From assembly GCF_000024465.1 (NCBI RefSeq), contig NC_014010.1, positions 2,579,001 through 2,643,000 on the forward strand: a stretch of 64,000 nt of DNA, in the 5' to 3' direction. The notes beneath the pieces are model-generated. The model did not search any database. It worked only from the letters and a program-made list of their open reading frames with translations, and was not told where the DNA came from. Numbering within the stretch: position 1 is the stretch's first letter; each line of letters opens with the position of its first letter. A program made the position numbers and the translations under genes. Shown piece by piece: positions 2,544-4,117 of the stretch. Origin of the DNA: Candidatus Puniceispirillum marinum IMCC1322. GTDB taxonomy: Bacteria > Pseudomonadota > Alphaproteobacteria > Puniceispirillales > Puniceispirillaceae.

Positions 2544-3470
2544 ATGTCGCTGATCCTTCATCATTACCCGCAATCACCTGTTGCGCATAAGACGCGCATG
2601 GCATTGGGCATTGCGGGCGCAACATGGCAAAGCGTTGAAATTCCGCGCATTCCACCAAAGCCTTTGCTGATGCCGCTTACCGCTGGCTATCGCCGGACGC
2701 CGGTTTTACAGATTGGCGCGGATATCTATTGTGACAGCCAGAATATAGTCCGGGCTCTTGAAGAATATGGCTGTCCTAACAGCCTGTTTCCCGATGGGGT
2801 TACGGGACGCTCGATGATGATGGCATCATGGGCTGAAAACACATTATTTGATCTGGCGGTGCGGGTGGTCATTACCAATGCACTGGATTCGGCACCAGCC
2901 GACTTTATCGCTGATCGTGGTGCGCTTTATTTTGAAAAAGACTGGTCGCCAGAAACCTTGCGCGCAGATATGCCCGGCGTCTTATTGCGTTTACAGGCAG
3001 GGCTGGCCTGGGCTGAATTTCAGCTTGTCGCCAGTGATGGTGTGTTTCTGAATGGTGACACGCCATCTTATGCCGATGCGTCAATTGGCTATATTGCTTG
3101 GTTTTTGCGCGGGCGCTGGCAAGGCGGGCCAGGATTCCTTGGTCCATTTGAACAGGTCTGTAAACTCGAATCTGCCCTGGCCGATATTGGGGAAGGTAAC
3201 AGCAGCGACCTATCGGGCGAAGACGCACTGGCCATTGCCAAAGCGGCAAATCCGGTGTCGCCAACGGGGGTTTCGGTGCCCTTTACCGCTGGTATCAAAG
3301 AAGGGCATATGGTTGCCATTCAGCCGCATGGCACGAATGCGGATCCACAGGTCACAGGCAGTTTGCGCTATCTTGATGCCACACGGGTATCGATCGATCA
3401 TGATACGCCAGAAACAGGTCCGGTGGCAGTGCATTTCCCGATCGCTGGATATGATATACGTCCGCTTTAG
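2544..3470 (+). CDS. Glutathione S-transferase-like protein
   Basis: 308 residues. The N-terminal 80 residues follow the GST thioredoxin fold (LILHHYPQSPVAHKTRMALG, then TPVLQIG and a CDSQNIVRALEE cis-Pro/helix region), followed by an all-helical domain. The C-terminal 90 residues (from about FTAGIKEGHMV) are beyond the normal GST length of about 200-220 and look beta-rich, so this is a GST with an extra C-terminal domain of unknown role. The ATG at 2544 is preferred over TTG at 2523 because it has a CTGGAG site. Substrate unknown. Confidence 0.8.
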   Translation: MSLILHHYPQSPVAHKTRMALGIAGATWQSVEIPRIPPKPLLMPLTAGYRRTPVLQIGADIYCDSQNIVRALEEYGCPNSLFPDGVTGRSMMMASWAENTLFDLAVRVVITNALDSAPADFIADRGALYFEKDWSPETLRADMPGVLLRLQAGLAWAEFQLVASDGVFLNGDTPSYADASIGYIAWFLRGRWQGGPGFLGPFEQVCKLESALADIGEGNSSDLSGEDALAIAKAANPVSPTGVSVPFTAGIKEGHMVAIQPHGTNADPQVTGSLRYLDATRVSIDHDTPETGPVAVHFPIAGYDIRPL

Positions 3471-3496
3471 TGATAGAGTTATAATTTGGCAGTTTG

Positions 3497-3527
3497 GTAT
3501 GGTGATGCAATAATTGCATCGCCATAC
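3497..3527. repeat. Inverted repeat after the GST-like gene
   Basis: 14-bp arms 3497-3510 and 3514-3527 with one G/T mismatch and a TAA centre (GTATGGTGATGCAA as left arm). No T-run follows. It may end or stabilise the GST mRNA, or be a protein-binding site upstream of the small-RNA candidate. Confidence 0.5.
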
Positions 3528-3543
3528 GGCGTAACCAGCACTT

Positions 3544-3572
3544 CTGTTATGCGCTAATTTTGCGCATAACAG
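3544..3572. promoter_or_regulatory. Perfect 11-bp inverted repeat overlapping the likely sRNA promoter
   Basis: CTGTTATGCGC (3544-3554), a 7-base loop, then the exact reverse complement (3562-3572). A possible -10 element CATAAC lies in the right arm at 3565-3570, about 7 bases before the first base of the sRNA stem, with a weak -35 near 3542. The symmetry suggests an operator controlling the sRNA; a second RNA hairpin is the alternative. Confidence 0.4.
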
Positions 3573-3576
3573 CTTT

Positions 3577-3683
3577 GCAAGGAGCGCACCTCCCTCCAAT
3601 CCGGTTACTCTCCAGTTTCCACGCGCTCCTTGCCGAATCTCCGTTAACTTCCCCTGGCTGCTATGCAGACCAGGGTTTTTTTT
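3577..3683 (+). ncRNA. Candidate trans-acting small RNA with a C-rich loop
   Basis: About 107 bases with no convincing ORF. The 5' part is a perfect 11-bp stem, GCAAGGAGCGC (3577-3587) with GCGCTCCTTGC (3623-3633), enclosing a 35-base pyrimidine-rich loop with ACCTCCCTCC and TTACTCTCC. A single-stranded linker carrying ATCTCCG follows, then an intrinsic terminator (3652-3683). Exposed CU-rich anti-Shine-Dalgarno motifs plus a T-tailed terminator are the hallmark of alphaproteobacterial regulators of the AbcR/alpha-r15 or CCUCC-loop kind, which block ribosome sites of transporter mRNAs. I cannot assign it to a family without a covariance search. The 5' end is inferred from the stem. Confidence 0.6.
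3652..3683 (+). terminator. Intrinsic terminator of the sRNA candidate
   Basis: Stem CCCTGG-CTGC, loop TAT, GCAG-A-CCAGGG, followed directly by eight Ts (3676-3683). Textbook Rho-independent terminator on the plus strand. Confidence 0.85.
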
Positions 3684-3757
3684 ATCTTATCCCCATCACA
3701 CTCTTGACCTTGCTGGGTGATCGTTACACAACAGGTCACCTAGTCGCGAGGATATCT

Positions 3758-4117
3758 ATGAAAATTACCATTAAGGACTCACCATTACATGGACTTGGCG
3801 TTTTTGCTGTAGAAGATATCGCTGCTGGCAGCACGATTGAACGATGCTTTTATCTTGTGATTGATGACGATGATCTGCAAAGCACCAACCGGTTGAATGA
3901 TTATCTATTTACCAGTCCGGATGACCCGAATGACTATCTATGCGTTATGGGATGCGGGATGGTTTATAATCATGGCAATCCTGCCAATGCTGAATGGCAG
4001 ATAGATGATGACGATAATCGCTTTGTCCGCTTTTCGGCACTTTGTGACATAAAGGCAAGTACTGAAATCCTGCATGATTACGGCGCCGACTATTGGACCA
4101 CGCGCGCCGAAACCTAA
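3758..4117 (+). CDS. Small SET-domain protein
   Basis: 119 residues. The N-terminus KDSPLHGLGVFAVEDIAAGSTIE is the opening of SET-domain proteins, and the later segments GCGMVYNHGNPANAEW and ILHDYGADYW match the NHS-type pseudoknot and the DYG/Y motif near the end. SET domains methylate lysines using S-adenosylmethionine; bacterial substrates of these short versions are mostly unknown. The ATG at 3758 has a GAGGA site. A longer frame back to 3560 would run through the sRNA candidate and is rejected. Monocistronic, 74 bases after the sRNA terminator. Confidence 0.8.
   Translation: MKITIKDSPLHGLGVFAVEDIAAGSTIERCFYLVIDDDDLQSTNRLNDYLFTSPDDPNDYLCVMGCGMVYNHGNPANAEWQIDDDDNRFVRFSALCDIKASTEILHDYGADYWTTRAET

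Follow-up and report, generated by a model that had tools for sequence, protein, structure and literature searches.

The intergenic region between the genes for a glutathione S-transferase-like (GST) protein (2544-3470, + strand) and a small SET-domain protein (3758-4117, + strand, starting 74 nt past the T tract described below) of Candidatus Puniceispirillum marinum IMCC1322 contains a long hairpin followed by a terminator. This raises the question of whether the structure belongs to one of its neighbours or is an RNA in its own right, and under which conditions such an RNA would be made. We consider it probable, at roughly 0.6, that 3577-3683 encodes a trans-acting sRNA that is transcribed on its own, belongs to the nitrogen-limitation response, resembles the rhizobial sRNA NfeR1 in its build and is controlled from the operator of a LysR-type regulator. 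The predicted transcript, about 107 nt long, would begin with a hairpin whose loop is rich in C and U and continue through a short linker into an intrinsic terminator. Coordinates refer to the window, i.e., the whole 64-kb stretch of DNA that was analysed.

All structural parts named in the earlier note are present at 3577-3683 on the + strand: a stem of 11 perfect base pairs, a loop of 35 nt, a linker rich in C and U, and a terminator. The stem arms of the predicted hairpin 1 (3577-3633), GCAAGGAGCGC (3577-3587) and GCGCTCCTTGC (3623-3633), are 11 nt long, 100% complementary and separated by a spacer of 35 nt. The resulting loop ACCTCCCTCCAATCCGGTTACTCTCCAGTTTCCAC (3588-3622), which includes ACCTCCCTCC, is composed of 16 C, 10 T, 6 A and 3 G, so that 26 of its 35 bases are pyrimidines. 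A single-stranded CU-rich linker (3634-3651) leads to the intrinsic terminator, the presumed 3' end of the sRNA, with a stem at 3652-3675 (6 bp, a bulged A, 4 bp and the loop TAT) and a T8 tract at 3676-3683; the simple terminator scan did not list it, probably because the stem is bulged. Since the T tract lies 3' of the terminator stem on the + strand, the direction of transcription is likely +. The fold of 3560-3700 is unusually stable (z = -4.68), with none of 200 shuffles being equally stable. Perfect inverted repeats with arms of at least 10 nt and a spacer of at most 45 nt number just seven in the window; two of them lie in this intergenic region, and the repeat at 3577-3633 is the sole one with a spacer above 15 nt. 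Of all 107-nt stretches of the window on both strands, those overlapping this one included, 0.045% contain at least five CTCC motifs. Concerning the earlier proposal of an sRNA with an anti-Shine-Dalgarno loop, the existence of a + strand sRNA is well supported at the sequence level by the hairpin, the T8 terminator and the upstream operator.

Directly upstream of the hairpin are two palindromes, I1 (3497-3527, + strand) and I2 (3544-3572), which the earlier note had missed and which alter the interpretation of the locus. I1 carries the operator core GTGATGCAATAATTGCATCGC at 3502-3522, the presumed site of a LysR-type regulator linked to PII and Amt genes, and exactly 14 nt past this operator, as in relatives, follows AGCAC (3537-3541, + strand), the presumed second subsite of the regulator. 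I1 contains an exact copy of the operator GTGATGCA-N5-TGCATCRC-N14-AGCA. Regulators of the LysR type commonly have two binding sites, one of T-N11-A form near -65 and another near -40, a layout that the operator with its AGCA fits if transcription starts near 3577. The own genome has just two strict matches of the operator pattern, one at the window site and one at the regulator/PII-Amt locus. When the window was scored with a position weight matrix built from 29 relatives, the own regulator site excluded, the window site ranked first of 127,848 positions, with 40.3 bits from operator to AGCA versus 1.0 for the next position; the sites of the matrix had been picked partly by AGCA. With three mismatches allowed, the operator matched 49 and 45 times on the two strands of the own genome, compared with 5 and 4 times for the control; all 22 of these loci that were read (L100-L121) overlap open reading frames, although L101, at the regulator gene, does so only by way of a start of that gene placed further upstream. 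We rejected the idea that I1 is a repeat or mobile element because no genome has more than two strict matches.

The link to nitrogen comes from the relatives. A search with the whole intergenic region in the 60 other genomes of the family gave one match at E ≤ 1e-3, a piece of I1 in genome G023, where it sits directly upstream of a LysR-type regulator gene that has a PII-like gene as its divergent neighbour; being palindromic, I2 also matched itself in this search. The pattern GTGATGCA-N(3-7)-TGCATCRC was found at 12 places in 9 of the 61 genomes, own included, always with the N5 spacer and versus none for the reversed pattern used as control, and the second element AGCA lies 14 nt past the operator in most contexts of these 12 places. 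The regulator has matches at E ≤ 1e-30 in 37 of the 61 genomes. Among the best 30 of these, own included and the seven weakest being outside the count, the operator (0-4 mismatches) with an equally spaced AGCA lies upstream of the regulator at all 30 loci read, a count favoured by selection because the sites were picked partly by AGCA; the strict order-wide search, which gave 45 places spread over 34 of 136 genomes and none for its control, provides the unselected check. A PII gene, recognised by its start motif, was seen beside the operator at 25 of the 30 loci and was not found by this motif at five. The own regulator site departs from the operator at one base and lies outside the window, at the locus G000:C1:2665088-2666115 (L101, L134), where the LysR-type regulator gene (2665088-2666011) is divergent from genes for PII and a marine-type ammonium transporter, which match PF00543 and PF00909 over cut-off. 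NCBIfam names no family for the regulator, its listed matches all being far below cut-off, and a PDB search with the own regulator gave no match at 1e-15. From these patterns, the conserved operator GTGATGCA-N5-TGCATCRC-N14-AGCA looks like the mark of a nitrogen regulon of the order.

The genes that follow the operator point in the same direction. By coordinates, 20 of the 45 strict places lie beside regulator matches, one more was read as such (L190) and one is the window site; 16 further places were read for their downstream genes, and the remaining seven are outside this breakdown. A pair of mannosyl/glucosyl-3-phosphoglycerate-type phosphatase and synthase is preceded by the operator at six of the 16 places (L168, L170, L171, L172, L185, L186); in the one pair tested, the specific models scored below their curated cut-offs and the general HAD-IIB model above. 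This pair of glucosylglycerate type suggests that a nitrogen-free compatible solute is made under nitrogen limitation. UrtA-like substrate-binding proteins follow at four places, with the one tested reaching 546 bits versus a cut-off of 493, and the N-terminus of a cyanase at the end of a contig follows at one, scoring over the Pfam cut-off and below that of NCBIfam. Four other places (L156, L157, L183, L187) precede an open frame of 64-84 aa that begins or continues MF(I/V)A...CS, and the frame of L183, the one tested, had no Pfam or NCBIfam match. In two genomes an NMT1-type substrate-binding protein comes after an operator that has no AGCA. As the operator-linked genes are largely a nitrogen-acquisition set, we infer that the LysR-type regulator is a nitrogen-limitation regulator. 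The RNA would probably take part in the response to nitrogen shortage, because the operator adjoining it is the switch found at the ammonium and urea uptake genes of relatives. If this is true, the fixed operator signature defines a nitrogen regulon of a marine group, covering the use of ammonium, urea and cyanate and a glucosylglycerate-type solute, predicts which sRNAs respond to nitrogen, and provides a precise control region for testing the mechanism of the C-rich loop.

The same operator could instead serve the SET-domain gene, with 3577-3683 being its 5' leader and the terminator acting conditionally as an attenuator. The SET gene is on the same strand and starts 235 nt past the operator, slightly beyond the 98-212 nt that separate operator and PII gene at 25 loci, and in five relatives (G004:C158, G014:C74, G017:C9, G023:C39, G029:C14) the SET orthologue shares a contig with the regulator/PII locus at a distance of about 5-11 kb. 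However, no operator place was found closer than about 5 kb to the SET orthologue in the 33 of 60 relatives that have one (34 of 61 genomes, own included), the T8 terminator is strong and still folded in both the minimum free energy and the centroid structure, and a 35-nt open pyrimidine loop is, in our judgement, unlike an aptamer; we therefore regard a leader as unlikely. In the own genome, the SET gene and the regulator/PII locus are about 82 kb apart. An in-frame extension of the SET open frame reaches upstream as far as a TTG codon at position 3560 and takes in the sRNA; it is probably spurious and due to chance because it crosses the terminator.

An origin from the other neighbour, with hairpin and terminator forming the 3' UTR of the GST-like gene and yielding at most a processed, 3'-UTR-derived sRNA, also appears improbable. 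The GST gene, which has the same orientation, ends at 3470, and between this point and the structure no further hairpin followed by a T tract was seen; UTR-derived sRNAs are known in Rhodobacter. Against this stand the operator and its fixed-spacing AGCA, which lie between the GST stop codon and the hairpin and are directed at the hairpin, as well as the 16 GST-match loci of other genomes, in which no similar hairpin was seen. GST matches were found in 17 of the 61 genomes, own included, and in none of the 15 other genomes with both genes are GST and SET adjacent; the GST-like protein searched against the genome contigs found one distant locus with 39% identity.

Returning to the independent sRNA, its start near 3577 would follow the candidate -10 hexamer CATAAC at 3565-3570 (+ strand), which is weak with 4 of 6 matches. 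The extended -10 TGNTA, which lies about 25 nt past AGCA at PII promoters, the only promoters compared, is not matched at the window site, and 26,517 of the 127,848 window positions score as well as this site with the matrix of the PII-type extended -10; the start site and the promoter strength are therefore uncertain. That the sRNA is real but starts near 3521, from a sigma-70-like site at 3486-3514 (TTGGCA-17-AATAAT; 10 of 12 consensus matches) and with I2 as its first hairpin, as the fold of 3480-3690 with I1 and I2 as hairpins would allow (z = -8.3), is very unlikely, as two promoter-like sites were found versus 0.9 ± 0.9 expected by chance, and its -10 falls within the operator, so that the regulator would have to act as a repressor.

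With the start near 3577, the presumed core promoter is overlaid by I2, CTGTTATGCGC-N7-GCGCATAACAG at 3544-3572 on the + strand, which carries TGCGC-N7-GCGCA, i.e., TGC-N11-GCA, at 3550-3566. NtrC is encoded in the own genome, with 565 bits versus a curated cut-off of 558.6, in a cluster whose first protein is presumably DusB-like. The 9 kb around this cluster contain four loose TGC-N11-GCA matches, one of them just before the DusB-like gene, and the tighter TGCRC-N7-GYGCA has no match there or at the own regulator/PII locus and two in the window, one inside the GST gene. TGC-N11-GCA has been reported as the form of the NtrC site in the promoter of NfeR1 (PMC10746234). Judging from I2, NtrC control of the window RNA is possible.

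We propose that the LysR-type regulator would bind the operator and activate the sRNA promoter, and that the sRNA would come on together with ammonium uptake at nitrogen shortage, because its promoter has the operator of the regulator whose gene diverges from those for PII and the ammonium transporter. Through I2, which covers the presumed core promoter, NtrC or a different repressor could keep the sRNA off. The loop would then most likely pair with the G-rich translation-start regions of some mRNAs and block ribosomes there. The broader claim that repeated CUCC motifs could hit many ribosome sites gained no support, as pairing was no better than expected from composition, with 158 of 200 shuffled loops matching or beating the loop-to-start energy. 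These comparisons used the 62 predicted start regions of the 64-kb window, chosen by our own rule. Complements of loop 6-mers were present in 20 of the 62 regions versus 16.4 ± 4.5 for shuffled loops (at least as many in 117 of 500 shuffles), those of 7-mers in 4 of the 62 versus 4.7 in shuffles, and the reversed loop pairs better than the real one (-13.75 vs -12.19 kcal/mol).

The RNA is single-copy in the own genome (one contig of 2,753,527 bases) by BLASTN, and no homologue was found in the 60 relatives by DNA or covariance-model search. BLASTN gave only short matches in these relatives (best E = 0.0017); those to the 5' part, mostly coding, were rejected by eye as due to chance. The covariance model, which was built from the window RNA alone (one sequence entered twice) and searched under stricter filters, recovered itself and two weak matches (E = 0.26 and 0.55), rejected because the folds of their surroundings have no such hairpin. 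Scanning both strands near the SET gene (30 of 34 matched loci) and the GST gene (17 loci, own included) revealed several hairpins with C-rich loops, none of them judged similar except that of the own genome. In viral contigs there were three matches to the hairpin pattern, all without the 3' arm and one within an 80-aa open frame, and none to the operator pattern. Conservation of the structure at homologous loci, on which the earlier note had placed weight, was thus not found in other genera, the searched genomes containing no other species of this genus.

Among the sRNAs compared, the window RNA would work most like NfeR1 (alpha-r14), and by the features tested it is not a member of that family. 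NfeR1 of Sinorhizobium meliloti is a nitrogen-stress-induced sRNA with C-rich motifs in its hairpin loops, three hairpins each carrying CCUCCUCCC; its promoter has a site of the LysR-type activator LsrB, TGCA-N6-GCAT, at -72 to -60, and a site of the repressor NtrC, TGC-N11-GCA, at -101 to -116 (PMC10746234). The window RNA resembles this described arrangement in its TGCA-N5-TGCA operator, its TGC-N11-GCA palindrome and its C-rich loop. It differs in having one C-rich loop with ACCUCCCUCC plus a terminator instead of three hairpins, in its presumed regulator, which adjoins PII-Amt and is presumably distinct from LsrB, and in the position of the NtrC-like palindrome over the presumed core promoter. 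The motif CCUCCUCCC is absent from the RNA, which has CCTCC twice and CCTCCTCCC nowhere. A LysR-type site upstream of the promoter, as in alpha-r14, is present as far as can be told from the DNA, and it is an analogy rather than a homology because the regulator is presumably another one.

The AbcR-type RNAs are known for binding Hfq and down-regulating ABC-transporter mRNAs, and the CcsR or cuckoo RNAs of alphaproteobacteria have CCUCC-type loops and are linked to a DUF1127 gene. Unlike the latter, the window RNA is adjoined by the GST-like and SET genes and preceded by a separate operator. AbcR-type membership is unsupported, with no Rfam match at the gathering score and no homologue found. 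The comparison with anti-Shine-Dalgarno sRNAs is apt in function and finds no support at the level of family membership. At E ≤ 10, Rfam gave three matches only on 361 bases (best 13.7 bits vs a gathering score of 50), and no alpha-r family was among these Rfam 15 matches. The anti-Shine-Dalgarno motifs of AbcR1 and AbcR2 (alpha-r15) are described as similar to those of NfeR1, and AbcR1 as co-activated by LsrB (PMC10746234). Among the papers searched, no title or opening of an abstract describes an sRNA or a LysR/PII regulon of SAR116. As a tentative and rather doubtful generalization, SAR116-type bacteria may have a nitrogen-limitation regulon under the PII-Amt-adjacent LysR-type regulator that includes sRNAs with C-rich loops, here activated by this regulator and blocked by NtrC, convergent with the rhizobial NfeR1 logic and using an unrelated RNA and another regulator.

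Two operator places of other genomes carry structured units of their own. At L182, the remaining one of the 16 places read (G029, minus strand, operator at 802-838), the nearest long gene downstream begins about 280 nt away. Two long hairpins come after the operator, the first beginning near the expected start site and the second having the loop ATTTCTCCCCCGTTT (CTCCCCC) and a T-rich tail. The arrangement could be an independent sRNA, or it may encode a small protein instead, because a 77-aa GTG open frame spans the hairpins. At L187, the small open frame, which starts with MFIAK, comes after a long hairpin with the loop TTTCTCCCCTT; neither unit had an Rfam match at the gathering score. In two other genera, the operator is thus followed by long hairpins with TTTCTCCCC in the loop, which are like the window RNA in their C-rich loops and unlike it in sequence.
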